Source: Macrocystis pyrifera (Eukaryota > Sar > Phaeophyceae > Laminariales > Laminariaceae). Taken from it: a stretch of 64,000 nt of DNA. The position numbers and the translations under genes are program-made. Each line of letters begins with the position of its first letter. Positions within the stretch are counted from its first letter, which is position 1. Below are positions 22,626 through 52,038 of the stretch, piece by piece. The DNA is taken from contig JASSKH010000016.1 in the NCBI GenBank assembly GCA_031763025.1, positions 5,876,054 through 5,940,053 on the forward strand, read 5' to 3'. Below the pieces are notes generated by a model. It had not been told where the DNA came from and searched no databases. It saw only the letters and a program-made list of their open reading frames with translations.

Positions 22626-22880
22626 ATGAAGTCCAAGACGATGAAAAGCTCGAGCACTGCAAGCTGTTGCTTGCAGTGCCGAATCGTAATTCTGGCCCTC
22701 GCTGTCGCGGCCAACGGGGTGCTGGTTGAGGCACTCAGGACCGTCCTGGATCCCAACGGGTTGCCGTTGCTTCAGCCAGCTCAAAGTTCTCCAGGAGGGC
22801 TACATGACGATGGCAGCTGCAAAGATACGACGACGACTCGAGCGTGGGGAGGATTCCGCCGTGTCGACTTGGTTTACCTC
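22626..22880 (+). CDS. Fibre gene exon 1: signal peptide
   Basis: The 85-codon exon starts at ATG 22626 (a second in-frame ATG lies five codons on). A basic/polar n-region leads into a hydrophobic core CRIVILALAVAANGVLVEA (about residues 18-36), a good secretory signal. It ends at the donor CTC-GTGAGA, phase 0. An earlier in-frame ATG at 22473 lies before the TATA-like site and is not preferred. Confidence 0.6.
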
Positions 22881-25800
22881 GTGAGAAATGGGTCTATTAT
22901 GTGCCGGTACGAGTTATCGCAATGATGACCCGGCCAGAAGAGGAGCCGAAAAGCTGAAGAGCGGCCACGCTAGGATAGTGCTGTCATCATGGCACAATTA
23001 ATGTATTATTACTGTGATTATTATAGTAGTGGTATACCTGGTAGGATCTAAAATTGTACATACATGTACTTCGTGTGCACTTATCGTATGATACTGACGC
23101 ACATCACGCAGTGGGTTCGGGGGCCGTGGAACATGTTTCTGTTGAGCATAAGATACAAGTACATCGTGTACGCCACCTGTCAACATAGCCAATACTTTTG
23201 TTGAACACAAGCTACAACAACAGGATACCGGTACAGTTTATAGTAACAGTATCATTATACGCTACCTTTTTCATGGCAATACCATGCTCACATTCCAAAC
23301 CTGATACGCGCTCTGCCTTCTCGTGCAGGGAAGCTTTGCAGTGCAGCATTCGTCGACTGCGATCAAGTGGCAGCCATCATTAGCTCCCAGGTAACGACGA
23401 TAAGTGAGCCTTGTATGAGCCAGATCATGGCTTGCTCAGCTTTTAAATTGATCGAGGGCTGCAGTAAAAAAAAATACCAACATGAAGCTGTTCACACTAC
23501 AATACAAAAGCCTTACGAAACTCGGAAGAAAGCCTGCACACACCCTTGAGTACACCCAGAGAACATGAGCGTTGACAAGGGGTGCGTACAAGAGGTAAGT
23601 ACATTGATTATTGGAACAAAACGGTGTTCGATCTTAGGAGATATGATACAGTAGCCTCGCTCTTTTTGGTGCGTTGGGTAAAGGGTAAAAGGTAACATTC
23701 TCGCTTTGCGTCTTTTCAGTCGCTTCATCTGCCTCCCTCGGTTTTGACCGCCATTTGTCGCGTGATTTTTTTTAAGATCTACGGCAGACGTTCACCACAT
23801 CCGAGGACAGCTAGCGGGGGCGTTACTGGAGGCGCCTGGCGGCAAAACCGATGGTGATAGGACGGCACCTCTGCTTTTGCTTGGTGGACACGTATGCGCC
23901 CTCTCCCTGAAAAAAAAAGAGAAACAACTGCAAAGCTCGGATTGGTTTACGCTACGAGAGCCTTACGCGTGGGAGTCTGATCTGGACGTCGCAGGTTTTG
24001 TGTTGCCGCGGTGGATGTGGGACGCCGTGGGTGGTGAGACGGTGAGCATGACCGTTGGGGTCCCGAGGGTATGCAGCAAACGCTGTGTACGTCGTACGGC
24101 TGGTAGAGGCCATGGTATTGCCCACCACCTTCAAGCCCTCTTGGCATTGCAGGTGGCCACTCCACCCTCCCTACACATTGTGGGCGTAAAAAAGTTGTTG
24201 TGGAGAAATTGCAACAATGTAGCACACTGTTGGGCGCGGCTGTTAGCACCTCGTGGGGCTTGCTAAGTTGTTCAATGTCTCCACAAAGACTATTTTACGC
24301 CCACAGTGTGCAATAGGGGGGTCCCGACCACCGTTGACGCTAGATATCGGTCGGCTCTACACTCTAGTTATGGTTCTGGTCTCGAACATCATCTACAGAA
24401 ACGTTCGGTCAGGCATTTTTTCTTTATTGATGGGACTCGTGACGTGCCAACTCCGCTGAACGTTAGCATGACATGGACACATATTACTCTGGACGGAAAT
24501 ATAATATAATGCCACTAGAGGCACACATAAAAATCAAACAAAACTACAATTTACAACGCTCTCTCTACATATGCACGCAGTCTCGGCCTGCAATATGCTC
24601 GCGCCGTGTGTGCAACGCCGACCTTCGGATAAAACAAAACCGCTTGAAACTGCAGGGGGGTGGTGCGTTGCTAATCCACCCCAACACTTCATCGCCGGAA
24701 GAGCAAGGCGCACCTGGGCATGAAGCAAGGGGACCCTCCCGATCACACAACGCTTCGAATTTCTCCGAACCATTCGTGCAAGTCGCGTTGTGGGGAGACG
24801 GAGAGTTCCATCCCTTCTTGAGGGCGACGTCGACAGGTCTATCGCTTGAAGGAGGGCCCGGAAGAGTCGAAAAGGGGGGGGATAACCGGAAAGCGATCAG
24901 CACCGAAAAGGGAGATCTGGAAATATCTCCGGCAGCCGGTGAGGAGCAGCGGCTGTACACGTTTCAGTGGCGTGATACTCACCCTTCTCATGTTGTACTC
25001 CGTCTCGAAAGGGATGCGTGGTCAATAGCCAAATGACTAAGGCAGGCAGCAAATGAGTACGCGCCCCCTCCGAGCTCCCCGCCCCCCTCTCCCCCCGCCA
25101 TTGCATGTAGAATGGAAACCGCGTGGTGGGGTATAGGAGGGTGAGGCGCACCGCTCCGAAACACCAGGTGTCGAGGAGTGTTGCGGGACTCAATCGTAAC
25201 CTAGCCTCCTCCTCCTGCAACTGACTTACCACTCTCCCTTCTGAATGGACCTCTACAAATTTAGTGCAACTCTTTCTTACCGTGCAGCGCCCGTGATGCA
25301 ACAACACTGACAATCGACGCCGAGCACTGATTTACCCTACGAGCCTTCAGTAGTAAGAGTTATGGCCCGAACACGCGCCCCCGCAACGCACGGGAACAAC
25401 GCCGGCCTTGTGTCTCAATCAAGGCCTTCGTCGGTAGCAGCAGTAGTATCAGTAGTAGGAGCTTAAGTAGGACCAGTAGTAGTGATAGTAGTAGTAGCGG
25501 TAGTAGTAGCAGTAGCAGCAGTAGTAGCAGTAGTAGTGACAGTAGCACAGCAGCAGTAGTAGTAGTGATGCCTGAAAACGTATCCCGACAACAAACATGA
25601 AGCAGCGCTGACATTTTATTTTGCCCTAGGCCTGCTTTCAGTGGCATCAGTAGTGATGCGTGATGACGCAGAGCAACAGAACGAACGTGAGCACAACTGC
25701 CAGCATTTGTTTGTTGATGCCCCCAGGCCTGCACCTGCTTTCGGGGACCGAGCAAGGCAGCGACGTGCGGATAGAGACGAGAGGGAAATGGGGCGGGGTC

Positions 25801-28800
25801 TACCTTAACTCCGACGTGCTGCATTGGACGTCCAGCTCGAACTTTGCCAATTCTCCAGCAACCTTCCCAGTAGAAGAAAGTTCTACGATCGGGGGGGGCT
25901 TAGATGTGCCAGCGCGTAACAGAAAGGGAGGGGAGGCGGCTGTCGGAGAGGGAGCGCGACAAGGACCGGCAGCAGAGCACGAGGAGGCCTCTTTCAGAAT
26001 AGATGAGGACACGCTGGAGGCGAGAGGGCTGACCACGGTGAAGCTTGGCGCTGGCCGCTCGTTCGATTTGAATGTTGTCGGGGGACGCGAAGGGGGAGGG
26101 ACGGCCGAGACGAACGGGGGTGCTGTGAGAGGCGACTTGAACTCTGTAAACGCCAGCGCTGGAGCCGTGAACGTGCAGGTGAACACATGCTCATGTCGAT
26201 GAGACGTAGCACAACCAGTGATAGGGGGTTGTTCAAGGTTCGCTAAACGAGACATCGGGGTGGAGGACAGAGTAGAATATGGTCGTGTTTTTATTCAGTG
26301 GTATGCTAGGTGACAGGGAACGCCTATTAATAGCTGGCGTCTTGTTCACATCGGTGTACGATATCGGATGGGAATGGCAGCGTCACACCGGGTAGAAAGC
26401 AGGACCATACCATGGACATGCCCCTACGTACGCGATCTTGGACGTTGGTTGGGCCGTACCCGCCAACCGCACCGCGGAAAGCACTGCACGAAAAAATAAT
26501 TTTTCCCGTCTGCGTAGCGACAGGCCGTGGATGTTTGACTTTGTAAAAATTGAACCGAAACTGTAGTATAGCATTGTTTGTGTACCTTTTCCCGTTGACC
26601 CTGGTTGCCTGGAGCATATCAAAGCCTTGTACCTATAGAGACCTGCCTGCGCTTTCAGCTTGCACAAAGCCACCGCCCGCCTGCATCTCTCGCTCTCCCG
26701 TCTAACTCACGCAGGCGTTGGATCGCGTGCTCGTTTCCGGGGCTAACGGGGCGAGAGTAACGTCTGCAACAGGAGACGTGTGCCTAGACGCGAGCGATGG
26801 AATTTCTTCTATTCGTCTTTCGGGTACCGACATTCAAGGTGCAGCTCCAATGATAACATTCATCGCAGGGCTTGTGCCGGAGCTGGGAGCCCGAGCTTCT
26901 ATTAATAGTGGAACACCGGACACCACAACTGGACTTAGTGGAGCGGAGGACCTCCGCGTATTGGGCATTTTTGAGGATGCTGCGGGTGGATACCTAAACC
27001 TGACGGGTACATCAGCTGCAATCGGAGGGCCTGGAGACGTCTCAGTTAAAGCAGGCAACGAGGTACTGGCACGGTAGGAGTTTTCCAGAATAGCGAAACG
27101 TTGCGCTCCTTTGAGGCTGAGGACGTCTTCCACCCATCGACATCCATCCAAAACACCCAGTGTCCGTGCTGATATTCACGCCCCTACTGCATGAGTAGAT
27201 TGTTTCAGTACATGGTATTAATAGCAGCATGTTTTGCTGGCATTACTGCTGTGCGAATAGTACCGCGTCGCCCTGCAAGGTGTGGTCGGATTTACACCTG
27301 GCGCCTCAGCCACGGTGTTTATCCCCCAGCAAGTGAGATACGGTAAGCCTCACGTGGGTTCTAACACACCGCCCCCAAGCGTTTTGCAGACCCCCCTCTG
27401 ACCAATGAATTGCCGATCGAAGACCAGTATACGTACCTTGGCGTAGAGATATCAAAATACTGCTCTTGGGATAGACAACATGAGAGTGTTTGCGAAAGAA
27501 CCGATTAAGGTTGGGTCGAGAACCACAGGCTATTCACCAAACCAAAACAGAATCGGGTTTGAAAGTGATTGCGAGAATCCAAAGCGATCATTTCGGTTTT
27601 GAACTGGAAATAACATTCTAGGAAAATGGAATACAGCAACAAATGACAAATAACGAAATAAAAATACGAAAAATGGAACACCAACGGCTTCGTGCGAGAT
27701 GCTGCTTGCTGCTGCTGCTGCTGCTGCTGCATGGCTCGCTGCGTGTGTGTGTGCTCTGTGCTCTATGGCAGCCATGCGAAGAGTGCCAATCGATGCGACC
27801 GAAGCTCGTTGTGCAGTTCGTGCGTAGGCGTGCTGTGTGTGGGTGTGCGTGTGGTGCGGTAACACGCGCCAGAGCCCTGAGTACCGCTACTGTGTTGCCG
27901 CATCAAGAACAAGCAGCACAGCAGAGCAACAACTTCCGAAGCAGTCCACAGCGCACAGGGCGCCGTCAACGATGTTGACGCCGCATCCTGCCAGCCCTCC
28001 GCCGCATATGGGCGCATGACTTTGCCGGTCTTCGCGAGGGCCTCGCGTTGATACGGCCTCGCCAAATGGGCCGTGCGCTCGGTTAGATAGCTTGGTGGTG
28101 TGAGGCAACCCATGTATCATGCCTCCCTCCTCGTGCTGGGCTACGCTGTGCGTGTGAGCACGTGACGTAGATGTTTATGATTTCTTGCCAAATACGATGT
28201 TTCATTCGCCCGGGGCATCTCAGGGTTGTCCTGGCCAATGAAGCTATGATCATAATCGAAACCCAAGAAGCCAAACCCAACCCGAAAATTTTATGAAGAT
28301 ATGGCCCATATGAGCCGATTTTGGGTCCTTATTTTGGGAAGTTGATTATTTTTTGGGATCGGGAGAATAGAAATACGCCAAACCCAATTATAATCGGAAC
28401 TTCGCAAACACCATTCAAGAGTAGTTGGAAAGGGTAAATCACACGTAGGCCAGATGGATGCGGTCCTGACAGACTCGCACCTTGACACTAGGATCAAGAT
28501 ATGTTTCTTCATGAATGTGATGGTACCAAAGCTAGAATATGCAGGAGAACTATGGGAAGTGAGCGCCAAGTCCGTAAAACAAGAGAAACCGTACAGATGA
28601 CAGCAGAAAAAAATACCAAGATGCTCAAGTACGACTAGTAATACAGTATTGAGAGCAGAACTGGGAACGTACCCACTCAAAGCAAATAAAGACATGAGAA
28701 AGTTGAAGTGACAATATAATGTAAGGAACGTGCCAAAAAAGAGGTTGCCAACCATAGTCGATGGAGAAAGTAACAAAAGGGCGAGCTGGAATAAGGTAGC

Positions 28801-30164
28801 GTAGTTGACAAAGTATGGAAAGATATAGGAGGAAACCAAGAAGAGGTGGTGTCCGCCGGAAAAAAGTCTGGGAGGTGCAAGGCAAAAGTAGAAGGAAGGA
28901 TAGAAACAGGGGAAAGGCTAGCGCTAAGAAACGAGGTGAAATCGGAGATACACTTGAGAGATAAACGGGGGATTAGGCTTAGGGATAGGAATGAAAACGT
29001 ATTTGCACGACCCAATGAACTTCGCGAAAACCCTGAAACTGCGCGTTCGTGTGGGTGACCTGGACCTGCCAGAAAGAACAAAGTGGTATACCAGTAGCCG
29101 GGAGGAGGAGGAAGTAGATGCACAGATGTGCCCGTGTGGCAAAGCAATAGAGAGTAGAACTCACATAGTAGAAGAATGTGAAATATACAAGAAAGAACGG
29201 GATGTGTTTGAAGAGGAAATGAGGGAAACAGAGGAATGTGACATGGAGGAGTTTGGTACACTAGATAGCAGCGAGAAAACGGTCGCTATCCTACGAGATA
29301 GATGGTGGCCGCAGGCGGTGAAACAGGAAGGGGAGAAGATTAGCAAAAAAAAATGTAATATATGGAAACAACGTATTGAGCGACCATACTTTAGAAGTGT
29401 GTCTCTATAAGGAGTAGGAACGGTGCTCCGTCTCGAAAGAGATGCGTGGTCAATGGTCAAATAACTGAGACACACAACAAATGAGTACGCACCCCCCCCC
29501 CCCTGGCCCCTTATATACCTGGTATATATAGGTTGGGTTGGTATCGGTTGACGACGAGGCTGTAAAATACGCCTCTCCCTGCGTGAGCAAGACAGCCAGG
29601 GTGCCGTTTTTTTTTCTGGCGGTTACCACGGCTGGCGGTCAAGTTAGATCATTTTTGTGCGGGGAAAACCCTTGCTCCGCACAAAGGGAATGATAGTATC
29701 ACGTAGTGTGTACATGGTGAGGCCCTCACGAGTCAACTACATGGTAAAGCCATTGCTGTCTCTGGAATGGCCATACCAGAAATTAAATCAATTCATTGAT
29801 GCTGCCATCCATATGCAAGAAAATCCGCCTCCAAAACGGTTCTTAGTAGGATGCAGCTCACCCTTCATGCGACTCGTCCAACACCTCACGGCGCTTCGCG
29901 CTTGGTGCAAGCAATGTCTGCCTGGTCGGTGAAAACCCGACGCGCTCCGTCCCGGCAGTGTAGGATGCGAGGGTCTATGGTCATACGACTACGGCCATGC
30001 ATGATAACGAGTACCCCCCCCCCCCCCCCCCCCAATATATGGAAACAACGTAATGAGCGCCCAATTGTTGGAGGTGTCTCTATTAGGAGTAGGAACGGTG
30101 CTCCGTCTCGAAAGGGATGCGTGGTCAATGGTCAAATGACTAAGGCAAGCAACAAATGAGTACG

Positions 30165-30227
<63 letters not shown>

Positions 30228-33200
30228 CCTGGACAGACCTACCCGACTTAACAGCCTCACCCTCGTTCTGGTCGGCTACCAACTGCACCACACAACAGTT
30301 TATCATCGTACGTACGGTAGGTCGTGTTTCGGATATCAGCAATAAACTGCACCTAAGGGCAATCGTTTTCTTCCCTCGGACATTTGACCTGATGCTGTAC
30401 CCCCCCCCCCCCTAATGAGCGCCCAAATGTTGGAGGTGTTCCTGCTAGGAATAGGAACGGTGCTCTATTTCGAAATTACTGTTTGGTCAACTAAGGCGAA
30501 CAACAAATGAGTCCCCCCCCCCCCCCCCCCGCGCCCCTCCCCCGTATTTTTGTGTAGGTATGCCTACGTGCCAATAACTCTGTTCTGCGTGTCTCCACGG
30601 CAACCGTCGCAATACAATCGCCTACCGTCCTTCTACAATCGTCGCCGCTCTGGGAATCAACCCCAACAATCGAGGGCCGCCCTCCACCTGGGAAACAACA
30701 ATCTTCATCCAGCACTTCTGATGAAGTCGGGGCGCTCCTGAGCTTATCTGGCGGGGCTCTTGCCATGAACGCATCCGCGTCCATCGAATGGGAAACTCCC
30801 GGGGCATTCGCGCGGTTAGTTGGCCGCCGCGACAGCCGCAGTCATGATGATGTTTTCGCGAGCGGGAGAGCCGGGGCGTTCGTAGCTGATGCCGATGTGG
30901 TCGAAATAAGAGCCAGGTTGCCTGCGGGAGTGGTGATTGCTGCAGACGGAGCTGGGGCGGGAGGCATCGCAGGTGATGTCGAGACGGCGGGAAAAAACGC
31001 AGAAAGCTCAACCACCGGAGCCAGACTCGAGGTGAGTTAAGGTCATCATGTTGAGCAATACCAGAAGGCATCAGTGACCTGTTGTCGTGATTAATGTTTA
31101 GTGGCAGCCTCAGTACAGCAAGCAGCTTACGGACGTGGTCAATGCTCAGTAGAGACTGCAGTGCAGCTACATGTGCGCGTCAAAGCAGCGGTGGACCCAT
31201 CTGAACACGATGTAACTGATATAGTATGTACTACCGCGTCATGCAGTCCGGTCGCTTGGACGAAAAACAAAACTTGGCTGTAGGACGGTGGAATAAGCCG
31301 AATAGAGAAGTTTGGCGCGTATATATCTTCCCGGTGCGTCGTTGTACATACGAAAAAAACAAAGACATCGTCAAGAGATTCTGGCCGCTTGTTTGCTATA
31401 TCTGTTGTCCTTGGATATTCTTCCACGTCGACCGCCAAACACACAGGTTTCCGCGGAGGGTGTGTCCATGGGAGGGATTTCAACCACTCTTGCTGCCTCT
31501 CGGCGCCTCACGCTCCGGGCTGGGGGGCAAGAGGGATCAATGGGTCAGAAAGGAAACCCACGGGAGCTGAAGGGAGAAAATGTCCACACAGGGTCGACAG
31601 CCCAACCGGAAGGGAGAGGGGTGTCAACTGTTGAGCTGAGCGACGGTGGGGTCAAGGTAAGTACTATTTGTTAAGGTTCGCAGATATTCACGGTACCTGA
31701 TTCCATAACGCTGTGGGACGTGATTGTAAGTGCGTATGGAGAAAAATGCATTTCAAGCATTGCTTGGCTCTTCGTGTTCGCGCCACCCAAGGCTACATAG
31801 GTGTAGCACAGCTACTTTCACTGTCTTTTCCCCCTGCCATGCATGCGGCTCGAGCTACGTATCAACATCGTGGAAATACGATATCTAAAACCTCAAGCCT
31901 CACATGCTCAGTCCCTCTCGCACGTTCTCCCGCCACCACCGTTTTCTTGCGGGCTCAAGGCCATCGCACCATCGTCGCAGTCTATTGTCCTCCGCGCCGG
32001 AGCTGGCATCGTTCTCGAAGCACCCCAGTTGGCCATATCGCATAATCTCGGTGGGGAAACCGCGAGCGAAGAAATGCCCGGCGGCGGATTTCACCACAAG
32101 ACCAGCGGTGGCAAGACCAGTGGCGGCGATAGCGCCCGCGGTGGTAGCAGTGGCGGCGGCGGCAGCGGCGGCGGCGGGTTATGGTCAGATGGCACAAGCT
32201 TGACAGGAAGAGCTGAACGACGAGTCCTGCTGCAGGCGGGGCCGTCTGATCGCGGGTGAGCGCAAAGTATATATATATATAAGTGGAGCAACAGTTACAA
32301 TATGATAGCAAGGTCTTGCTGCGATAGGTGTGCCCTGTTTTGGCTTTCCATACTACATGTTTCGGCTATCCATACTACATTTCTGACTCACGGGGCGGGG
32401 CTTCCTTGACCGAGGAACTATCCAGATATGCGTGAAACACATACAACATACCAAGTGTTAATAGTGTTTTTGTTTGCTGTAGTGTTCGTGATACACCTTA
32501 TATGTAGACCACGGGGGATTGTTCATCGGATTAACTTTTCACCCTATCTCAAAACCAGGTTTTGGGTGAGGCATAATGCGCCTCCAGCGAGGCGAGGAGC
32601 CTGAAAAACAAACAGGTGCTATATACCCTACGGTAGCGTGCGTCCAACTAGCAGGACTATGTGCCGGCCTGAAAGTCAGCGAGGGGAACAACAAAGGTGG
32701 ACGACTCGGGCTCGTTTGCGATTTTCGGTGTATCGTCTGCCGCGTCGGAGATCGACCGACAAGCTGGTTACAGTTTATCAAAAGTCCGGCGCGGGATCCA
32801 AGTTTATATCCGGTCTTCCCACCACGGCTGCTCCCGTGGACATTAGAGCCGCTTTGAGAAAGCGGTCAACTCGAACTGGATCCTCCCCACAACCGATTTC
32901 CCCTCGTTTCTCTCTCGCACCCCTCTGCCTGACCTTCACACTTTCGTGTCAATCACTAAAAAAAGCAAAACCAAGGAGGATGAGGCCGGGACGAGCCGAA
33001 GCCATATCTCCATAGAGGAAGACCGGATTCGTGTGTGTGTAGGTGGAGCGAAGAAGCTAGCGTTAGCAGCGCCTAGAGCGGAGCCAGAGGCGAAGGCGAC
33101 AGGAGGCAGTGGAGTTGGTGCGGTTATGCCCGGAAATGGTCTCTCCTTAGAGGTGGTTGGCTCGGCCAGTTTATTGTCGACAGAGGTGCGACGCTAAAAT

Positions 33201-34017
33201 TAAGTAAACATCCACCCTGAAACAGTGCTCGCGCGAATGTGTAGACCTCGGCAAATGCACCCTTAGGGTGCACGGTGACCAACTAAGCTGCAACCGTGTA
33301 GCTCTGGCCTTCAGTGCCCCACGGGTTTGCCGTGATGTCAGGCAGAGTTGCACGTGTCGGAAAGAACAAGGCAGGGCCTTGTTCGATCGGAGTTTAAGCA
33401 CTACCACGTCGCAACGAGCGCATATCGTTCCTTTAAGTTTGCTCGTACGAAAAGGTGCCGAAATGTACTCGCAGGCGGGGGTGTGTGTGAACATCGACCT
33501 GTCGTGAGCATACGAAACGAATCCCTGCACAGCAATAAGACGCTTCTTCCAGAGATCGAGCAAACGTTAACTGAGCAGCACTATAGCGGAAACCGAATGC
33601 CCCCGTCGCGTCCCCTTACACCGATCCCTCAACCAGGACCTGGAACTTCGGGCGCAGGAAGTACTGCTATCCTCCTCCAACCAGACCACAGTGTACTCTC
33701 CGGGCGGAATACTTTTGGCGGGCTCCCCCGTCCTCGACAGTGGTGCAGCCGACAGCTCAAAGCTGAGGGCTGCTCGGGTGGGGCTCAGGAAGCAAGAGGG
33801 TCACATACTTTTGGCGCCGGGGGTGGGGGCGGGAGTGGGGATCGGCCCGGTTTTCTCATCACGAGACCTGTTGGCGCCAGTAGGTCGGTCCGGAAGGGGG
33901 GGGGGGGGCACTCATGCCATGCATGGTCGTGCACGTACGATTAGTAGACTCTCGTATCTCTACAATGCCGGCACGGAGTATGTTGGGCTTTCACCGGTCA
34001 AGCAGACATTGCTTTCA

Positions 34018-34111
<94 letters not shown>

Positions 34112-43100: not shown

Positions 43101-46100
43101 ATACGCTACAGCAGATGATGATGCAGATTATACGGCTCCCACCCGGCAACATGAACTACTGTAGTAGATCATGCAGATCATACAGACCATACATATCAGG
43201 GGGATACCTACCCTGAAAGAGCTAGATCATGAGCTGTAGATGATCTGTCCCACGCGTGAAACGCTCCGCGTGCCCGCCCCAATAAGCTCTTTGTGTGGAA
43301 CACGTCGTGCAGGTGGAGAAGGAGGCCTCGCCATCGTTGGTCTGGCAGGACGCTACCACCGGCAGGAAGGCGGTGTCTTACTCCCGCCTTTTGGCGACGC
43401 TTGTCGCCGCCTTTCAGGTGTGAAGTGGGCGCCTACTACGTAGGCTAGAAATATTTTGTTTAGATTGTTGTTTCCTGAGTGTCGGTTGGAGGGAAAAAAT
43501 GAAGGCGTTCGATATACACCACAACCATTGAGCTGTCTGTCAGCAGCCATTGTGAATATCTGACCAAAGCGCAACCCGGGGTTCGAAAATGAATTGAATC
43601 GAATTCACTTGAATTTAATTAAATTGAATTGGATTGAATCGAGTTGAAATTGATTGGATTGTAGGGTCGGGTCGGGTCGGATCCGGCAAGGGTGACCCCA
43701 ACCGCCGCCAAAGTTTAAAAACCTCCTGGCTCGACGCGACCCGACTCGACCCGACCCGACCCGACCCGACCCGATCGGTGAGATTTAAAAACATTACTCA
43801 CACGTGAAAGAGCCCTAAATACAGACAACAGGCGTCCACCAGTCAGCGTTTGCCAATGATATCCGTTGCTCAGCGATTTGTATGTGCCGTATGTCTAGAC
43901 AAACCTCAAGAACTGTAGAGTAGATAAAATAGCCGAGCCCTGCGCTTGGCCACAACAGGGCGAGAGTTACAGCGGTGGAAAAAAGACACTGTTGTGACCT
44001 GCCGCATTTCCTTTCGCAGAGGTTAAGGTTGCTCGAAGAGGCAAAGGCCGAAAACACAGACAGTTGTCGCGGGTGACAATGCTGTCGAAGGCACGGGGAA
44101 ACACGCCATCCTTTCGCCAGCCATGTTGTAAAGTTCGCCACGAAGGGGCGGGCGCTTGCTTTGGGTCCTTACTATTTTCTGACTGACGGGGGCTCCCCAG
44201 GTGAAGAACCACCCAAAACGTTTTTCAATCTGATTTTTGAGTTTTACAAGTTGTTTTTTTATACCTACGTATCATATAGCCCATGGGATTGTTTACCGGG
44301 GGGCGCGTCCAATATTTACCGAGGAACACTTCATGAGAAGCAAGGAGCACGGATAGCAATTGAAGGAGATAGAGGTTACACAGGAAGGATGTACAGAAGG
44401 GAGCTGGGCTTCGTGCCAAAAAAAATGTCCTTTTTTATTTTCGTTTTCCTTACTTCTTCTCTCGGGGACTGTTTGTAAAACTCATGCCCAGCATATTGTC
44501 AGATGAAAGACGCAAAATTTAATGTTTAATCAGAAGTGGAGTTTTGGTTAAAAACTACGGAGTTCCTCAATCATTTGGAACCTGAGGAAGTTTTTAGGTG
44601 CCCCCTCTGTCGTCGCGCCATGACTCTTTGCGCGAAAATTGATAATGACTCGGGGTAGGGTAGGGGGAGTGTACTCGATAGGAGAGATGTACTCGATCTC
44701 ATGCATGTCCGTAGTTTCTTCGGTCATAGACCCTCTTATCCTTACAATGCCGGGACGGAGCAGGGTAGGGGGGTCACTTTTAAGTCCTTTAATTTGGTTT
44801 TGCCGCGAAAAGTCACCGCTCGGCCGAGTGACTACCCTATTTCTTTTGCAGTCTTTCGCTTTTACGCCTCCTCTTGGGTGTCGCGACATCCATTTCCATG
44901 GGATCGATTGTTGCTACTCTGCGCCAGAGCAAAACATACAGAGTCCAGTTTTCGGAGAGGCACAGAGTAGTAGACCCACTCACCCGAGTGGCCTAAACGC
45001 GGTATTGAAAACATTGGCGGCATCATCATACCCGTCCCTACCATGGCACCAGTCTTGCACCCCTGCTTCGTGTGGAAAAAAGTGACGCCGAGGTTAACTC
45101 TGGCCCCTGCTACAGCTCGATGAGTGAGTGAACCATGCGTGCTTCTGGCGCATGAAGGCTACACCCAATTCTTATGAGGCTCCTATTCTCATGTAAGGAG
45201 CTCTGTTCTGTTCGCCCCGAAAAGATTGACTCAGCGAGAAAAAAAAATGAAACTTTGAGCCCGATGAACTATCCCATGGCCTACAGTAACATATTGAACG
45301 AAGAAAAAAACGTAAAAAAAAAAAACATCAATGGTATTCCGACGATGTTGGGCGTAGTTCCTCGGTTGGGCAGTGCCCCGCCAGTCAGAAAGGAATTGGG
45401 CAAACCGTGTTTCCCCCAGTATTATCGGTGTGGTTGCCATGCGACACTGTGCAGCGTGTGTCAATCACCATAAAGAGACCCAAGAAGCAGAGAATGAAAA
45501 CCCGGCACGAAACAAAGAAACCCCGTGAAAGTATGACACCCCGAACACATTGACGCACAACAATATGCTTCCTGGAAACAAAGCATTAACCCCCCCCCCC
45601 CCCGCCCGTGCGTCTCATCGTAGCAATGCACGCATCTTCTGATCCAATCCGGTACCGTCTACGATAAACCCGTCACGGCAGCACCTCGACCGCCTCGTCA
45701 GCGAGGAACGGAAGGCCTGGGATAACCGACTGGAGGCGGTTGAAAAGGGCTCCGCGTTGGGGGCTGAAAGTTGTCGAAACGCGTCGGATCGCTTGAGGAT
45801 CGTTGAGGCGGCGAAAGAGGCTGGGGTGGAGTTGTCAAAGGTGCGTCCGTTTACAGAGTATCAAAGGACTTCCCTGTGAGTATATGGTATTATATGCAAG
45901 AAGGACGGGCACGAGCGTCGATCTATTGAAAACACGTAACGTGGGCAAGAGCGAAAAAGCACGCCCTGCAGCCTGAAAAGGTGTGACATTTCGTTGGCGT
46001 TAAGGCATTAGTTATTCCGTTGGGCTACTGGCAGCGGGAGGTTGAGCGATCTCCTGCTCAGCCTAAGCCGTAGAACCCCCCCTCCCCCCCCCTCCGTATG

Positions 46101-49100
46101 AAACGGCCGGACACACGGGTCGACGTGCCGCCCAGAACCCATGTTCTGCCGTCGACGCCATTTGTTAAGGTATTACCTGGTAGTCTCTTGGGCTACTGGT
46201 AAAATCTTATCCAATCACCTACCCAAGATACGCAAGCCTTGTAACAGTGGGCCGTTTTGTTGTGGGGTCAGGCGTCATGGTCGACGACAAATAAAGATTT
46301 TGAAGAAGAACCTTGCACCGCGTCGGAAAACAGCTGAGGAGGGTTGCAGCTGGCCTTTCGATGGGTCTACGGGGAAGGCCCGAAATGCTGTGACAAGCCG
46401 ATGGCTAAGATGTACAGGTATATCAGTCAGGGCCAAGACGTGTGAAAAATCTACGCAACCACGCCGTGTTTCATGTGTCTCAACACCTTAATATTCTTAG
46501 TTTCCCCTTGGTTCTCTCCTTCTTCAGGGAAATGTTTTATGCGTGATCAACGTTGAAGTAAGCGCATGCTGCACATTCTTCGGTGGACCAAACGAAATAA
46601 TGAGAGTGTCTACGGCATTACTCGTCTGCCATGTGCTCTAAGGTGCACACTCGAGATCTGGTGGCGCTAGAGGGTCGTCTCTCTGAGCAAGGGGGCCAGC
46701 TTCAGGCGGTGGGGACGGACTTGGCGGCGCTGCAGCGGAACATCGCGGAGGAGAAGGGAGACATCCAGGTGCGGCGGGATGAGATGTAATAAACTGTCGG
46801 GGCCACGATCTGGTACACGCGGGAACGCGTCAACCCCTTCCCTTCGCTGTTAATCGCGTCTCATGGCGCGAGCTTATGATGACATAACGCGAACGAAAAA
46901 TGCGTGACACGGTAGGGGTGCCACTATACATTTATGAAGATTCCCGTTTGAGGAGGTTTCTGTATTCTTTCAAGACCCACGGTCGGTACTTTAAGACCAA
47001 AGGTCGGGTTTTTCTTTAACGACCAACCACACGCTCGAACCCGACGATGAATCCGACGCCCTCTATATTATCAGGAAAGGAACGAATCATATTTGCAGCA
47101 CCAAACGATGTTGGGTACAGTAGTTCCTCAGCCGAGATGCCCCGTCATTTCGGCCGAAAATGTGCTATCCCTGTCGTATAACAGCACCCGCCAACACCGC
47201 GTAGCCACCCTCACACACTGAGCACTTACAGCAGGTTCTACTTACGCGCTTTCGAACGTGTTGAAAGCTCTCTTGACATCGTACTCTATGGGCACTTGGC
47301 TTCTACTAGACCGCGTTGAGAGAGCTCTCGAAGGGTTCTATTAGTTGTTGCGCGGTGCTTGGTCCTGTGGGCGTGTCAGTTGAACGTAGCGTCTGGCCTT
47401 TGCACCCCCCTCCCCTGCGGCGCGTTTTGCGAATGCGCGTTGTAGGAATGGCGTATTGAAGGGAGCAGACGCGAGCAAGAGCTGGAGAGGGAAGTCGTCG
47501 GCCTGAAATCACGCCTTGCGATTCTGGAAGAACGGCGCAAGGATAGCCTTGAAGATAGTAAAATACGCCAAAAGGTAGGTGGGCCCTTTCGGCGGTTGAC
47601 GTGTCAGCGCGAGCGCGCGCGCGCGCGCGCGCGGGGGGGTGTACGGGCGTACTCGTTGTCACGCATGGCGAGCAATCCCACGGAAGGAGTACCCCTTTCA
47701 GGCTCAGTAATATCTGACCAGTTGAGCTCCTCAAGCTAGGCTAGCTGCAATGAGTATACCAGATGTCGTGTATTTTCACAAGTATGATTGTTTTCAAGAC
47801 TACAGTAGTAGCCCATAGAAATGTTGGTCGGGTTGCGAGAACAAACTTACTTCGAAGCCTTGTTTCGGATGATACATTGAGCTTCTCATGTCACGGTCTC
47901 AGATCAAAAGCTTTTCCCTTTGTACAGTGGGATTGCTCTGGCCGTAGCCGTAGGACGCGGGGGACGGGGCGGGTGGGGGGGGAGGTGTACTCATGTCATG
48001 CGTGGCCGTAGTCGTATGACCGTAGACCTTCGCATCCCTACAATGCCGGGGCGGAGCACGTCGGGTTTCCACCGACAAGGCAGCCATTGCTTGCACCAAG
48101 CGTGAAGCACTGTGGGGTGTTGCGCGAGTAGCATGAAGGATGAGCTGCATCTTACTAAAGAACCGCTTTTGAGGCGGACTTGCCATGGATGACAGCTTCG
48201 ACTGAATTGATTTGTTTTCCGGTGTAGCCACTTCCTGAGACAGCAATGGTTATACTATGTATCTGCTTCGTGGGTGTCTTGCTATATACCTGGTACACAC
48301 TACGCATATACGATCATTCTCCTTGTGCGGAGGTAAGGTTCTTCACCCCGCTCAAAGGATCTAACTCGACCGCCAGCCGTGGTCACCGCAAAAAAAGACG
48401 AATAAATGTGAAAAACGGCACCCGGGTTGTCTAGCTCACGCAATGAGCGGCGTGTTTTACGGCGTCGTCGCCAACCAACGCCAGCCCAGCCTGTAGATAT
48501 GTAGGTATAAAAGAGGGAAACGTAGGGGTAGGGGCGTATGAAATTAATTATTTAACGACTCGAGCTTGGTGCGGATGAATTAGTTTAGGCAAAAGAGGGA
48601 AAATATTTGGCGATGGAGGGGTGGGTGATACAATAAACGACGTGTGGTCAACGAAACTGAAGGGCCAACGCGTTGCCGTGCGTAACCATTTCAAGTTTAG
48701 CAGTACCTGCGAATGCGTGGCACCCACCGTACCCGCGAATGCGTCGCGTCCATGGCAGACGGTCCATACAGAAACTACCGTGCAGCGCCGTTCCCGGGAC
48801 AATGCATACAGCAAAGTGCGATGAACCATCTCGTAGTCTGGGTATATCACGAGTACAATTGTGGCGGAAAAGCGCTAAACAAGGCGCTAAACAAGCGCTT
48901 CTCGAACAAGCCTCGTGCAAAGTCCTTGAGGCATCATCGAATCGGCAGAGTCCATCCGCCTGGCGCCATGACGTGTTTGGTCGCTGCTATGGTCCCATTC
49001 GCTTAGAATATGATAATTGTTTACTCCGCGCTATCGAACCGGGAGCTGATGCCTCCTGCATGAAATTTTGGCAGTGAGTATTGCTCTTCACTATCTCAAC

Positions 49101-52038
49101 CTGGAGCCGCCCCTTTCACGAAATGTTGACATTGCTGCTGCTTCTACAAAAGGCACAGGACGAGCAAATACAGGCGCTAAGCCTGAGGATCGGGACGTCC
49201 TACGCCTCGCAATCCAGATGCGATTCGTCGCTCCTGGCCGAGGTGGGCAAACAATCACCGATCATGAACTTGATTGCGCTTGAGTGCGTTTTGAACGAAA
49301 GCCGGAATAATTAAGCCCACAGCTTTGAGGCATTTTTCGTGCTCACGGTTGTTGTGTTTTTTTTTAAATGTTCAAATAACGATATACCGTGACTGTGCAC
49401 GTACGTGCGAAGATGTGGCACTCACTCACCTACCGTCGGAGGGGTCCCCATCGTGAATGATTTCAGTGCTGCAATACGCACGTAGGTAGCGCATGCTCCA
49501 CCGTCTCGTGTTTTCTCATTCAACTTCGTCTCCACGCTACTCGTACGCATTTACAGTATTTCTATTGACGCTTCAGAGGGGAAACGCGAGTTAAGGCGAT
49601 TGCTTCTTCAGTAGAGTTCACCACGACAACGATGGTTGAAGACGCTGTGTACGAGAAAAAAAGGCCCAAATGATGCAAACCAATGGTTGATTGGGTTTGA
49701 TTAACGATGTACTTCTCGGGTTTCAGGGTTAGTTCTATTCGTCTCGTGCACAGTTACAGTAGTGAGCCCCCAACCGTAGTTGTGTCGAGTTGTAGCATCA
49801 GTGGTGAGCTATAAGGTACCTTCGGAGGTACTCATTTAGTGCCCGGACTGAGTAATAAGACAGACGACGCGCGCAATGTACTATAGGGGATGATGCTACA
49901 AGCAAATTCTGAATGACCGAGGGCTCCTCCGTGGAGGAACTACTGTACATCCAGCACCGTTGGAATGATAGTGTAATAAATCGTTTCTTATGCGACGTCT
50001 GCACGCGACGCATGGGATTGCACATCTCGGGGAGGGGGGTTAACCATCCATTTCTTCTCAAAGAGTCAGTCAGGGGTGGGTGAGGCGTGATACACGTACG
50101 TAGTACGGAGTTGCTGAAGGGCGAAGCCTCAAAATGTGTACCAGTACACAGAAGGAGCACCCCCTATGTACCGCTGTAGCATATGCCTCAGGCGCGCTGT
50201 ACACGTGCTCACACTACTAATAGACGGTTGCTTAGCCCGAGGCCCCTGTCGTGTCGTGGCACGCGTCCGCCTCACCTGGGTCTCAAAAGGGTTAACTTAG
50301 AAAAACCCCCTTCGGGATCCCGATATAGCGACCAAAAGCAACGATTGACAACTTTGGCTGGTGTCACCAACCGTCTCATGGTATATAGGAGCAGCGTGAG
50401 TGCCCAGCACTGCGAGAAGGACCGTGCTGTGCCCGTGCCGTACGCACTCTTTGCATTCAACCATTGTAATTCAGACACCAACCACTGTACCAACCCCCCA
50501 ATCACGCAGTGGCCGTTGCTGTAAGCGTCTAGTTTGTATCGTCATTTGTTCGCCCTCCCAAGAGGGACAAATGTGTGTCCCCCCTCCTCCGCGCCCCCGG
50601 TGTGTACCCGACTGTAGGTTGAAGCACTTCGGGCGTCTCAAGGCGAGCTAGAAAGCCGCCTTGCCCCACTCCTCCTTCACCACCAAGCGTTAGCCCGCGA
50701 CGAAGAGGCGAGTTTGTATTGACCGCTGTTGGGTAGAGCGTGTGCCAGTTTCTATTGTTTCGTATGTTTTTTGTGCCACGTTTGGCCCCTTCGGCTTCGT
50801 TCCGCGTTAGCAGGTACGAGTTTTCAGTTCGGAAAAAATCGTCGGATCATCAGCACAACAACCTTCTTCTTGTAACTTACTGCAGTCAAATCGCGGTCAG
50901 CGCTTGGTCGTCCTGTTGCTCTCCTCGGTGCCGTTCGGTGCCACCGCTTTCTCCTGAATTTTCGCTGGTCGAGAGAGCGCACACCAATCGGTAGACCACG
51001 CATGTACCAAGGCTTACAGTAGTATGTGTTAATAGTACACCACATCGACGAATAAGAGCTTTTCCCTCGAGGTTCACACGAAACGCAAGAAAACGAAGCT
51101 ATGCCGAGACTGGCTTAGGACGTACTCTGCCTCACACGATCATCATATAGGGGTTTGCCCGAGAGACGAGCTTCTTACGTGGTGTCGACCTCTGTGCTAC
51201 GATAAAAGTCGCGGCACCCTACGTCTACTTTTAAGGCCCCTTACCCGGCAGGGAACTATATACCGCGCCTACAGTATTAAGTCGATTTCGAGAGACATTG
51301 CAAGCTAAGCCCGACGCCTCATTCTGTCTCGTGCAGCAGTTGGTACGTGTACGACCAATATTTTCGTAAGACACAAATGGGGTTCCAGCGACATTGGATA
51401 CAGCAGTTTCGCCAGTTGAGGAGAGTGTCGCCAGTCCCAGTGAGAGTTCGGCCAAAGACGTGTCAACCCTATTGCAGCACATGTCTGTCGCGTGCTGTAC
51501 CGCACTGCTCAGCAACATGCATGTTGGGTGTATCCCGCGTGGCAGACTCCCACTGACACACAGCAGTTGTTGTCACGATTTTGTGTTTTCAGCCGTCACG
51601 TATGTTGGTTCATGAGGAAAACGCCGTCGACACCCCACCCCGCCCTGCTTACAACTATTTACTTCACCACTGCTCGTGTTGCCCCCCACCCGACCGGTTC
51701 GAACCCCTGCACAGGCCTATTTCCTGGAGGAGGTGGAACGATTAGAAAGCCGTATCATCGAGGCAGAGATTCAACGAGAAAACGATCGCCCCTCTGTAGG
51801 GACAACAACAGCCGCAGCCGCAGATGCTGATGATGCGGCTGGCAGTCTTGACGGGGCTACCCGTGCACTGCTGTTTCCGAAGAATGGTGACCGGCCTAGT
51901 GCCGGGGGCGCGCCGCTGCTTACGGCAGAGATCCGGCAGACGCTTGAAAGACACAAGGATAAAATCAGGGCGGAAGCCGTGGCGTCGCTCCTGAGTCGTC
52001 GAGAGCACTTGGAAGCCCTTAGACAAATGAGTTTGTAA
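22626..52038 (+). CDS. Giant tail-fibre-like membrane protein with S74 chaperone domain
   Basis: Hand-built gene of about 29 exons, about 1,850 residues. Exons: 22626-22880, 23329-23390, 23777-24041, 24656-24938, 25727-26178, 26715-27062, 27261-27332, 30558-31031, 31119-31211, 31447-31656, 31960-32255, 32966-33185, 33658-33883, 34417-34635, 35573-35647, 35903-36056, 36415-36563, 36864-37007, 37079-37242, 38403-38587, 40649-40738, 41539-41631, 43313-43417, 45682-45840, 46643-46768, 47446-47574, 48228-48332, 49153-49242, 51715-52038. All are open between AG and GT and almost all phases match; the joins 13/14 and 19/20 and exons 2, 3, 9 are least sure. Order: signal peptide, beta-rich shaft repeats, S74/ICA domain, coiled coil, one TM helix, coiled tail. 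Inferred role: a trimeric cell-surface or wall-contacting fibre whose C-terminal chaperone drives trimer folding. The only eukaryotic relative I know with ICA plus coiled coil plus TM is MYRF, which lacks the signal peptide and shaft. Confidence 0.75.
23329..24041 (+). CDS. Fibre gene exons 2-3 (tentative)
   Basis: Exon 2 (23329-23390) follows TCTCGTGCAG and ends CCCAG-GTAACG. Exon 3 (23777-24041) follows a T-run acceptor (TTTTTTTTAAG) and ends before GTGAGC. Together they keep frame from exon 1 (phase 0) to exon 4 (phase 0). The translated part GALLEAPGGKTDGD resembles the shaft repeats, but the region is less regular than later exons, so this is a model and not a firm call. Confidence 0.4.
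24174..24310. mobile_element. 137-bp MITE-like inverted repeat
   Basis: CACATTGTGGGCGTAAAA at the left faces TTTTACGCCCACAGTGTG at the right, with TTGTGGAGA / TCTCCACAA further in. It lies in fibre-gene intron 3 and interrupts no exon. Confidence 0.65.
24656..27332 (+). CDS. Fibre gene exons 4-7: beta-rich shaft repeats
   Basis: Exon 4 (24656-24938) begins GGGALLIHPN and contains GLSLEGGPG. Exon 5 (25727-26178) has GSDVRIETRGKWGGVYL. Exon 6 (26715-27062) has DRVLVSGANGARVTSATG and GGYLNLTG. Exon 7 (27261-27332) has GFTPGASATVFIPQQ. The alternating hydrophobic/polar strands with Gly turns are like phage fibre shafts. The phase chain is 0 to 1, 1 to 0, 0 to 0, 0 to 0, each consistent. No cysteine-rich or enzymatic motif is seen. 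Confidence 0.65.
24990..25110 (+). mobile_element. LINE 3'-end fragment with C-rich tail, copy 1
   Basis: CTCCGTCTCGAAAGGGATGC and GCAGCAAATGAGTACGCG are followed by C-rich sequence (25060-25105). It is the last 80 bases or so of the poly(C) LINE family, in intron 4. There is no C tract on its 5' side. Confidence 0.6.
27333..28420. other. Fibre-gene intron 7, first part
   Basis: A (CTG)n run lies at 27709-27731. No exon could be supported between exon 7 and the LINE that follows. Opposite-strand Gln/Ala frames come from the triplets. Confidence 0.45.
28421..29500 (+). pseudogene. Poly(C)-tailed LINE, degraded 5'-truncated copy
   Basis: Conceptual translation from about 28425 gives VGQMDAVLTDSHLDTRIK and VPKLEYAGELWE, the region after the RT palm, then a charged stretch. 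After a frame change (29000-29050) comes RVRVGDLDLPERTKWY and the Cys/His cluster CPCGKAIESRTHIVEEC. The 3' end CAAATGAGTACGCA is followed by 14 C. It matches the better copy at 54133-55244 and has extra stops. It lies in fibre-gene intron 7. The long minus-strand frames here are antisense shadows of it. Confidence 0.8.
29800..30033 (+). mobile_element. SINE-like poly(C) retroposon (family P2), copy 1
   Basis: It runs from CCGCCTCCAAAACGGTTCTT to CATGCATGATAACGAGTAC and then about 17 C. An inverted relative lies at 47972-48187, a truncated one at 33910-34018, and a remnant at 44655-44765. It is too short to code for anything. The terminal GAGTAC plus C run is shared with the LINE family, so the LINE may mobilise it. 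Confidence 0.65.
30034..30225 (+). mobile_element. LINE 3' fragment between two C tracts, copy 3
   Basis: AATATATGGAAACAACGTAA starts directly after the C run of the preceding P2 element. The fragment ends ACAAATGAGTACG, followed by about 62 C (30164-30225). Confidence 0.8.
30399..30537 (+). mobile_element. LINE 3' fragment between two C tracts, copy 4
   Basis: Thirteen or so C precede TAATGAGCGCCCAAATGTTG. The fragment ends ACAAATGAGT and about 20 C follow. The C tract runs into the TATTTTTGTGTAG acceptor of fibre exon 8 at 30558. Confidence 0.8.
30558..33185 (+). CDS. Fibre gene exons 8-12: shaft repeats
   Basis: Exon 8 (30558-31031, 158 codons, phase 0-0) starts VCLRANNSVLRVSTATVA, a fibre-like strand series, and has GAFVADADVVEIRARL. 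Exon 9 (31119-31211) is tentative. Exon 10 (31447-31656) has GISTTLAASRRLTLRAGG. Exon 11 (31960-32255) has SQSIVLRAGAGIVLEAPQ and then a Gly/Ser linker (SSGGGGSGGGG). Exon 12 (32966-33185) has HISIEEDRIRVCVGGAKK and GNGLSLEVVGSASLL. Donors GTGAGT, GTAACT, GTAAGT, GTGAGC and GTGCGA. Between exons 11 and 12 another frame (32638-33015) is open but lacks the shaft pattern. Confidence 0.65.
33658..34635 (+). CDS. Fibre gene exons 13-14: shaft repeats
   Basis: Exon 13 starts after GGGCGCAG at 33658 (EVLLSSSNQTTVYSPGG) and ends either at 33879 (donor GTAGGT, phase 0) or at 33883 (GTCGGT, phase 1). Exon 14 (34417-34635) follows CCCCCGTGCAG and needs phase 1, reading SLLYVTNATQ and AHITVGSSGNSAVAVL. 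Either the weaker donor is used or a small exon between them was missed. The intron holds a P2 retroposon within G tracts. Confidence 0.6.
33895..34109 (-). mobile_element. P2 retroposon fragment flanked by poly(G) on both sides
   Basis: About 14 G (33896-33909), then a 109-bp fragment (CACTCATGCCATGCATGGTC ... GCTTTCAGA), then about 91 G (34019-34109). On the minus strand it is a P2 fragment with C runs at both ends. Gly- and Pro-rich frames across it are homopolymer artefacts. Confidence 0.8.
34867..34971. mobile_element. MITE of about 110 bp (GGGGGACC family), copy 2
   Basis: A diverged member flanked by TA on both sides, with core TGTATAGGTTTTCGCG. Lies in fibre intron 14. Confidence 0.6.
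35573..37242 (+). CDS. Fibre gene exons 15-19: shaft repeats
   Basis: Exon 15 (35573-35647), 16 (35903-36056; LLLELASSPGRIVGDAAG), 17 (36415-36563; TTFLIESTGAGVVQLLSG and IANAIVLSSRPG), 18 (36864-37007; GHSHWVMSQAGDK) and 19 (37079-37242; TTQSLILTTDVSRRPG) chain with phases 1-1, 1-2, 2-1, 1-1, 1-?. Donors GTAGCG, GTGAGA, GTGTGA and GTGAGA. The exon 19 end is not settled because exon 20 needs one carried base while the best donor (GTACTA) gives none. Confidence 0.6.
37484..38012. repeat. Pentamer satellite (GGTTC/GGGTC)n with palindromic end
   Basis: About 70-90 tandem GGTTC units (37560-37960) are framed by GGGTC units, with a GTTTCGTTCGTTTCGTTC interruption near 37650. The right side ends GGGTCAGGTGACCCGACCC. 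All frames stay open on both strands because a 5-bp unit is read as 5 codons per three repeats. It is not a gene. It lies in fibre intron 19. Confidence 0.9.
38265..38380 (+). mobile_element. LINE 3' fragment between two C tracts, copy 5
   Basis: CCCCCCCCC precedes CGGAACGGTGCTCTATTTCG. The fragment ends AACAAATGAATATG followed by C-rich sequence that leads into the acceptor of fibre exon 20. Confidence 0.7.
38403..38587 (+). CDS. Fibre gene exon 20: pre-chaperone G-x-G-T repeat
   Basis: The exon encodes a stretch ending GFGTGPTGARVTIGGALVAEQ, which matches the GIGT-x-x-P-x-A-K-L-x-V-x-G motif found just before S74 chaperone domains in phage and bacterial fibres. It ends phase 0 before GTGTGT and joins the chaperone exon directly. 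The acceptor lies at the end of a C-rich tract; the exact first base (38403 or 38406) is uncertain. Confidence 0.7.
39290..40360. other. Fibre-gene intron 20, partly repetitive
   Basis: Contains A/T and C/G homopolymers and a block around CCCATGGCCTATGAA that recurs near 45270. No exon needed: exons 20 and 21 join directly in the S74 pattern. Frames on both strands are composition artefacts. Confidence 0.4.
40343..40640 (+). mobile_element. LINE 3' fragment between C tracts, copy 6
   Basis: A run of about 15 C (40344-40358) precedes AACATGGAGAAGTTTGGTAT. The fragment includes part of the LINE frame (GAAAACG... GTAGGAACGGTGCTCC) and ends CAAATGAGTACG, then TTTTCCCCCCCC and further C-rich sequence ending at the acceptor of fibre exon 21 (40649). 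Confidence 0.8.
40649..43417 (+). CDS. Fibre gene exons 21-23: S74 / intramolecular chaperone domain
   Basis: Three phase 0-0 exons make about 96 residues. Exon 21 (40649-40738) has LSDEGMVRDIDEL and AMEAMRQ, matching SDERLK-x-DI and the following helix. Exon 22 (41539-41631) has MNVVSFGWTKEAS and QLGLIAQQ, matching R-P-V-x-F-x-W and IGLIAQE. Exon 23 (43313-43417) starts VEKEASPSLVW and has GRKAVSYSRLLATLVAAFQ, matching VEKVFPELV and G-x-KAVDYS-x-L-x-x-LLVEA. The catalytic Ser is present (LSDE), but the residue five on is Val, not Lys. This family folds trimeric beta-fibres; many members then cleave themselves off. Here trimerisation without cleavage is inferred. Confidence 0.85.
42326..42428. 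mobile_element. MITE of about 105 bp (GGGGGACC family), copy 3
   Basis: TTACGGGGGACCATAGTAAA at the left and its near reverse complement (TTTACTGTGGTCCTCCGTAA) at the right, with TA on both sides. Lies in fibre intron 22. Confidence 0.85.
42769..42873. mobile_element. MITE of about 105 bp (GGGGGACC family), copy 4
   Basis: Same termini with TA flanks but inverted relative to copy 3, 340 bp away in the same intron. The core ACACAAAAACCTATATATTC is the complement of that in the other copies. Confidence 0.85.
43650..43790. repeat. GGGTC/GACCC inverted pentamer array
   Basis: GGGTCGGGTCGGGTCGGAT on the left faces CGACCCGACCCGACCC on the right about 60 bp away, in fibre intron 23. Related to the arrays at 11.4 and 37.5 kb. 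It is preceded by an AT-rich GAATTGAAT-type tract (43585-43645). Confidence 0.75.
44655..45060. repeat. P2 remnant plus CACTCGGCCGAGTG repeat, copy 1
   Basis: 44655-44765 resembles the P2 3' half on the minus strand (TTACAATGCCGGGACGGAGC). 44769-45060 matches 52168-52450, including GCTCGGCCGAGTGACTACCC, a CATGG block and GGCATCATCATACCC. In fibre intron 23. No coding. Confidence 0.6.
45682..47574 (+). CDS. Fibre gene exons 24-26: coiled coil
   Basis: Three phase 0-0 exons. Exon 24 (45682-45840) HLDRLVSEERKAWDNRLEAV; exon 25 (46643-46768) LVALEGRLSEQGGQLQAV; exon 26 (47446-47574) ELEREVVGLKSRLAILEERR. About 138 residues with heptad-like Leu/Val/Ile spacing and many charged residues, continuous with the last S74 helix. 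A trimeric stalk between the chaperone and the membrane is the natural reading. Confidence 0.75.
47972..48187 (-). mobile_element. P2 SINE-like retroposon, copy 2
   Basis: On the minus strand it runs from CCATGGCAAGTCCGCCTC through GGTTCTTTAGTAAGATGC to CATGACATGAGTACACCTC and eight C. Lies in fibre intron 26. Confidence 0.65.
48228..48332 (+). CDS. Fibre gene exon 27: transmembrane helix
   Basis: The 35-codon phase 0-0 exon contains AMVILCICFVGVLLYTWYTL, a 19-20 residue hydrophobic helix, followed by a basic residue (LR). Acceptor TTTTCCGGTGTAG and donor GTAAGG are strong. The topology would be N-out, C-in given the signal peptide. Confidence 0.8.
49153..52038 (+). CDS. Fibre gene exons 28-29: cytoplasmic coiled tail and stop
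   Basis: Exon 28 (49153-49242, 30 codons) has AQDEQIQALSLRIGTSYA. Exon 29 (51715-52038) starts AYFLEEVERLESRIIEAEIQ, passes an Ala/Asp-rich linker and ends TLERHKDKIRAEAVASLL ... MSL with TAA at 52036-52038. Both are phase 0. A further possible exon (about 51371-51470, SPVEESVASPSESS frame) lacks matching phase and is left out. Confidence 0.65.
49243..51714. other. Fibre-gene last intron
   Basis: About 2.5 kb with an ACCAATGGTTGATTGGGTTT block at 49680 that recurs at 56605 and 57865. No transposon with clear ends and no additional exon that keeps frame. Confidence 0.4.

Follow-up and report, generated by a model that had tools for sequence, protein, structure and literature searches.

A host gene of the brown alga Macrocystis pyrifera with a predicted phage-fibre-like product and an S74/ICA domain lacking the dyad lysine

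The window, a stretch of 64,000 nucleotides of Macrocystis pyrifera DNA, carries on its plus strand what is, judged from homology and splice sites, a real multi-exon gene at 22626-52038. Its 25 exons comprise 5169 nucleotides of coding sequence including the stop codon and encode 1722 amino acids. A sequence-only reading had proposed a chain of about 29 exons over 29 kb; gene and span are borne out, while homology and splice sites reduce the exon number. The first model came from a small splice-and-codon gene finder whose training segments were taken from the same window, and was later corrected by homologs. Gene-finder scores are not taken as independent evidence, because the training used 16 peptide segments picked by eye in that window. 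Exons were placed by tblastn of the homologs P0001 and P0003 against the window, after which the splice sites were read directly. False exons that automatic models had inserted between real exons were dropped after comparison with the homologs.

The protein search with the gene-finder product yielded six matches, all from brown algae and all annotated as 'unnamed protein product': P0001 (Laminaria digitata), P0002 (Pylaiella littoralis), P0003 (Ectocarpus sp. 4), P0004 (Scytosiphon promiscuus), P0005 (Ectocarpus fasciculatus) and P0006 (Ectocarpus sp. 8). Residues 1210-1660 of P0003, used as query, returned the same six proteins, and a profile search with C-terminal pieces added P0007 (a fragment from Ectocarpus sp. 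12) and the ENA proteins P0008 and P0009; this count holds among the about 8000 best candidates scored in each protein search. The product is identical to P0001 at 1086 of 1415 aligned residues (77%) and to the Ectocarpus, Pylaiella and Scytosiphon proteins at 44-49% (687/1397 for P0002, 727/1602 for P0003, 710/1617 for P0004, 542/1149 for P0005 and 631/1369 for P0006), which places the source alga closer to Laminaria than to the sampled Ectocarpales. The single Laminaria protein covers 22 of the 25 exons in order, and exons 1, 2 and 25, which lie outside it, are supported by P0003 and P0004. The features of the locus are as follows.

22626-22880, plus strand: exon 1, with a probable signal peptide followed by the conserved ALRTVLD (hydropathy, alignment to P0003 and P0004; outside the partial Laminaria protein)
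23329-23390, 23777-24041 and 24656-24938, plus strand: exons 2-4, conserved N-terminal region, fold not assigned (tblastn, exon identities)
25727-26178, 26715-27062, 30558-31031 and 31447-31656, plus strand: exons 5-8, putative beta-rich shaft (tblastn, splice sites, alignment)
31960-32255, 32966-33185, 33637-33883 and 34417-34635, plus strand: exons 9-12, putative beta-rich shaft (tblastn, splice sites, alignment; start of exon 12 also backed by P0009)
35903-36056, 36415-36563, 36864-37007 and 38403-38587, plus strand: exons 13-16, fibre-neck-like, with GRWGVGAVP..LHVF and GFGTGPTGARVTIGGAL (splice sites, alignment)
40649-40738, 41539-41631 and 43313-43417, plus strand: exons 17-19, Peptidase_S74/ICA domain by profile (PF13884 match, alignments)
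45682-45840, 46643-46768, 47446-47574, 49153-49242 and 50618-50707, plus strand: exons 20-24, probable coiled coil (tblastn, splice sites, alignment, crude heptad test)
51715-52038, plus strand: exon 25, helical tail at the C-terminus, with the stop codon (Ectocarpus and Scytosiphon homologs)
48228-48332, plus strand: in-frame cassette within intron 22, resembling a transmembrane (TM) segment, absent from homologs and likely the TM exon of the sequence-only reading (cassette test)
24995-25053, 29295-29481, 30034-30156, 30415-30475, 38282-38346 and 40417-40607, plus strand, and 54141-54330, minus strand: copies of a LINE-like 3' tail (blastn)

Every intron from 16 to 24 is in phase 0. The junction of exons 24 and 25 (intron 50708-51714) appears to use a non-canonical GC donor (GAG/GCGAGT, exon/intron) and is placed on frame and homology only; joining across it yields ...DEEAYFLE, to be compared with NEEAMFLE in Ectocarpus. 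The least sure boundaries are the junction of exons 2 and 3 and the points at which exons 9 and 10 begin, where the acceptors are weak.

Several repeats and neighbouring sequences were also observed. Searched by blastn with a single 190-base copy, the window shows the LINE-like 3' tail at seven positions, the query itself included; six of these lie in introns of the gene. Intron 6 (27063-30557) is the longest, with 3495 bases, and contains a LINE-like open frame (28958-29407) whose sequence is related to that of frame 54141-54665 on the minus strand; intron 15 holds a 97-copy array of the pentanucleotide GGTTC at 37499-37983, open in several frames. Downstream lies a retrotransposon-like region on the minus strand (58569-62384) with a reverse transcriptase at 61137-62384 (RVT_1, E=3.3e-9); beside it, the minus-strand frame 58569-59321 appears tyrosine recombinase-like by eye and has no Pfam match at E<=0.01. 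Upstream, an open frame of 286 amino acids at 15364-16221 on the minus strand has by eye the look of a secreted or Golgi sulfotransferase (GLEGTGHHY), also with no Pfam match at E<=0.01. The Pfam scan of neighbours covered ten proteins, seven of which are open frames of the window outside the gene.

The highest 19-residue Kyte-Doolittle value of the product, 2.04, lies at its N-terminus, and the next stretch reaches 1.52. The corresponding N-terminal maxima are 2.15 in P0003 and 1.78 in P0006, and are moderate in P0004 from Scytosiphon (1.36 and 1.61); hydrophobic stretches are also present in the shaft of P0004 (1.76) and of P0002, a sequence without N-terminus (1.79). A-L-[RT]-T-V-L-D directly follows the hydrophobic stretch in all four available N-termini and, judged by eye, is a plausible signal-peptidase site. 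Judged from hydropathy, the signal peptide of the sequence-only reading is probable; the stretch may instead serve as an uncleaved anchor.

The region that follows displays short conserved strands interrupted by variable inserts, a sequence pattern that weakly suggests the beta-rich shaft repeats claimed earlier. Neither family models nor PDB sequences identify the shaft in the Pfam, PHROGs, NCBIfam and PDB profile searches. The sole family hint is DUF2345, at 18.2 bits with one open frame and 10.7 bits with the full model, below its cut-off of 30.7 bits. With P0001, P0003 and P0004 as queries, NCBIfam gave no match and PHROGs gave one weak match of unassigned function (E 0.016), situated in the coil of P0004. 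The whole-family profile matched three PDB sequences at E<=10, the best being an unrelated dehydrogenase (E 0.025) and the others tropomyosin and a ribosomal protein, both in the coil. AlphaFold monomer models were of low confidence and averaged a pLDDT of 27 for the N-terminus and shaft of P0001 and of 40 for the neck, S74 and coil of P0003, in which one stretch of coil helix averages 78-85. The G-x-G-T motif noticed earlier is present and conserved as GFGTGPTGARVTIGGAL in exon 16. Before the S74 domain stands GFGTGPTGARVTIGGALVAEQ, and further upstream GRWGVGAVP...LHVF and GVGAGVGIGP, all largely conserved; we take these to resemble phage-fibre neck motifs, a likeness not borne out by any family model.

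The S74/ICA domain was proposed in the sequence-only reading from motifs over three exons, and SDEGMVRDI, SFGW, GLIAQQ, VEKEASPSLVW and KAVSYSRLLATLVAAF do occur there in the order given. The Pfam profile of the spliced protein agrees. Exons 17-19 joined match PF13884 with 32.4 bits (E=1.2e-7), and the full 1722-residue model with 26.5 bits (E=8.1e-6), both above the curated cut-off of 22; the domain spans residues 1328-1392. Among the six homologs, one exceeds the cut-off (25.7 bits) and five fall below it (17.1-20.5 bits), and P0007, a fragment that stops inside the domain, gives no match. The S74 match is not a product of exon choice, because the homologs carry the same motifs contiguously. 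A profile of seven S74 sequences found one PDB match at E<=10, the ICA domain of MYRF (E=0.66), which is weak alone and points to the expected family. In a tblastn search of 50,697 phage records with the neck-S74 region, three reached E<=1 (E 0.03-0.09), all annotated as tail fibre and representing two phages, as Syn5 is counted twice. Profile comparison with one of these tail fibres aligned the S74 region with an E of 1.4e-4 and a probability of 53%. By profile, the protein is assigned to the S74 domain family, and the evidence supports a eukaryotic, brown-algal host gene with a phage-fibre-like product containing an S74/ICA domain. No account of an S74 protein in brown algae turned up in the literature search, to which subscription papers were mostly closed.

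The catalytic dyad of the domain was compared with that of known self-cleaving proteins. The available text of PMC8326128 reports that cleavage of mouse MYRF is abolished by S587A or K592A, residues equated with S911 and K916 of endoNF. The dyad stretch of the brown-algal family reads SDEG[ML][VI]RD. The serine is kept in 8/8 brown-algal sequences (seven aligned and P0007 read separately), and the position five residues after it holds valine in seven, isoleucine in one and lysine in none; the Macrocystis gene itself retains the serine and has valine. Both phage fibres aligned with these sequences have lysine at this position. As a control, the top 80 of 444 viral loci with similarity to the Syn5 fibre were fetched, and a search pattern that did not require lysine located the S74 motif in 78 of them. 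Lysine was present in 78/78, and in 76/76 when two loci carrying the exact scan pattern were set aside; the control is narrow, as these loci represent one corner of the family. By the dyad test, the brown-algal protein is classed as not a self-cleaving ICA peptidase, and it appears, as the simplest reading of the absent lysine, that self-cleavage has been lost. An arginine stands at +6 from the dyad serine, so that a different cleavage mechanism is conceivable.

After the S74 domain, a coiled coil is probable. The crude heptad score covers 264 residues against a shuffle mean of 217, a value reached by 20 of 200 shuffles; the coil of the sequence-only reading is consistent with the raised score, while the statistic is weak. 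Pfam lists there a coiled-coil-type family, HMMR_N, below threshold (17.3 vs 30.1 bits). The TM helix and membrane tether of the earlier reading are not supported: exon 22 runs uninterrupted into exon 23 in all five homologs that extend this far (P0001-P0005; P0006 ends earlier), none of the five has a TM segment there, and the sole strong candidate exon sits within intron 22. No segment of coil or tail after S74 is among the top four hydrophobic stretches of any sequence examined, and a constitutive TM exon was rejected on its absence from the spanning homologs.

The candidate exon was evaluated by a phase-0 cassette test of introns 19-24, in which 2 of 49 cassettes were TM-like, sharing one acceptor (48228-48332 and a longer variant). 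The shorter one has 105 bases, is in phase 0 with a hydropathy of 2.17, and its acceptor and donor match many real exons in strength. The same rule found TM-like cassettes elsewhere, namely two in intron 6, one in intron 16 and a further eight when intron 6 was read on its reverse strand. When introns 19-24 were resampled, 30 of 60 sets contained a TM-like cassette, and none contained one with splice sites as strong as those of 48228-48332, a threshold set after the result had been seen. The absence of the cassette from five of five homologs and the frequency of TM-like cassettes by chance therefore make a constitutive membrane anchor unlikely.

The preferred explanation, to which a probability of about 0.6 is given, is a secreted, homotrimeric, beta-rich extracellular fibre in which the S74 domain would stay uncut and clamp the shaft permanently to the coiled coil. 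A membrane-tethered fibre is improbable; in that reading 48228-48332 would supply the TM helix, whether constitutively or through alternative splicing that yields secreted and anchored forms in turn. The cassette is in frame, is hydrophobic and is framed by a strong acceptor and donor unequalled in the resampled sets (post hoc threshold); however, it is missing from every spanning homolog, weaker TM-like cassettes arise by chance in half of the sets, and the gene finder never picked it at any of four exon penalties. A chaining by eye of unrelated open segments would be suggested by the richness of the window in long open frames and by the false exons of the first automatic models, but such an artefact is contradicted by the homologs and has next to no chance of being correct: 22 exons align consecutively with a single, contiguous protein of Laminaria, and the remaining three with proteins from Ectocarpus and Scytosiphon.

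A recent capture of a viral fibre gene, from a polinton-like or giant virus, was also considered, in place of a host gene. S74 fibre genes are described in the available text of PMC12220804 as widely carried by polinton-like viruses of protists and as ubiquitous in those of most eukaryotic groups, and an endosialidase chaperone is recorded for some Ostreococcus viruses in that of PMC12906663. However, the former source names ochrophytes, parabasalids and amoebozoans as exceptions, the polinton-like viruses of ochrophytes being reported without S74; moreover, the gene has 24 introns, related proteins are present in Laminaria, Ectocarpus, Pylaiella and Scytosiphon, and two scans of viral contigs found no relative. 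Recent insertion was rejected on introns and conservation and is given very little probability, and a viral origin in the ancient past is possible. Still less credit is given to a MYRF-like membrane-bound transcription factor. The order of S74/ICA and coiled coil is that of MYRF, whose ICA domain is the only PDB sequence matching the S74 profile (E 0.66); against this stand a Pfam listing free of DNA-binding families, the missing dyad lysine and homologs without TM after the coil.

The analysis directly supports the exon chain, its conservation among brown algae, the S74 domain, the conserved fibre-neck motifs and the missing dyad lysine, whereas trimerisation, secretion and role are what we infer. 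The signal peptide would direct the chain into the ER. The S74 domain would assemble three chains and allow the beta-rich shaft upstream of it to fold into a fibre of three chains, like that of phages. With the dyad lysine gone, the S74 domain would not be released and would remain attached as a permanent clamp between the shaft and a coiled coil of three strands. Once complete, the fibre would reach the cell surface or the wall matrix. A structural or adhesion/recognition role is the least certain step and is proposed tentatively. It is equally speculative that a trimeric fibre of viral or phage type was taken over by brown algae as an extracellular fibre of their own, with its self-cleaving S74 domain disabled into a permanent clamp; Macrocystis might also splice in the cassette 48228-48332 as an optional TM exon, converting the secreted into an anchored form.

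To our knowledge, S74/ICA domains in eukaryotes belong chiefly to MYRF-type transcription factors and viral fibre genes. If true, the present reading would add a third use, in which the domain permanently trimerises a secreted fibre. Such a protein would be a concrete candidate for a component of the brown-algal surface with a structural or adhesion/recognition role, and would offer a natural test of whether the two functions of ICA, chaperoning and cleavage, are separable.

Among eukaryotic systems, the beta-gamma-delta sarcoglycan complex forms an extracellular beta-helix from three chains, according to the available part of PMC12750041. Its resemblance to the brown-algal fibre is a structural analogy only; membership was rejected, as the family is not listed by Pfam for P0001-P0004 (E<=10) or for the window model (E<=1) and has no PDB sequence match. 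The S74 fibres of polinton-like viruses, as far as PMC12220804 was available, are likewise long fibre-like S74 proteins in eukaryotic genomes. Those genes are viral, often with a C-terminal S74 and known binding repeats, whereas the brown-algal gene is an intron-rich host gene in which those Pfam repeats are absent.

MYRF/MrfA shares with the brown-algal protein as predicted a eukaryotic S74/ICA domain, a beta-helical stalk before it and a coiled coil after it, by the available text of PMC8326128. In contrast to MYRF/MrfA, the brown-algal protein has a probable N-terminal signal peptide, no TM in spanning homologs and no dyad lysine, and an Ndt80-type DNA-binding domain is not in the Pfam listing for the window model (E<=1) or for P0001-P0004 (E<=10). 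The earlier contrast with MYRF over its DNA-binding domain is thereby upheld, and MYRF membership was rejected on these grounds (no Ndt80-type domain, dyad lysine or homolog TM). A survey of membrane-bound regulators, PMC13294678, mentions from fish, sponge and Amoebozoa seven proteins of Ndt80 type that carry a chaperone-of-endosialidase domain; its main text contains none of the terms stramenopile, brown alga and Ectocarpus.

A likeness in plan also exists to phage S74 tail fibres and tailspikes such as the Syn5 tail fiber and endosialidase NF. As predicted for the brown-algal protein, a beta-rich fibre precedes the S74 domain in these, the dyad serine is shared, and a trimer is expected. 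The G-x-G-T neck motifs are presumably a further likeness, and the brown-algal protein is inferred to work like a phage-type trimeric fibre. Self-cleaving tailspikes and MYRF have the dyad lysine in common, and the brown-algal protein is without it, a point absent from the sequence-only reading. Unlike phage fibres, it also has a probable signal peptide and is encoded by 25 exons in a eukaryote. While phage S74 fibres end at or near the S74 domain, that of the brown-algal protein is internal, with about 300 residues beyond it.
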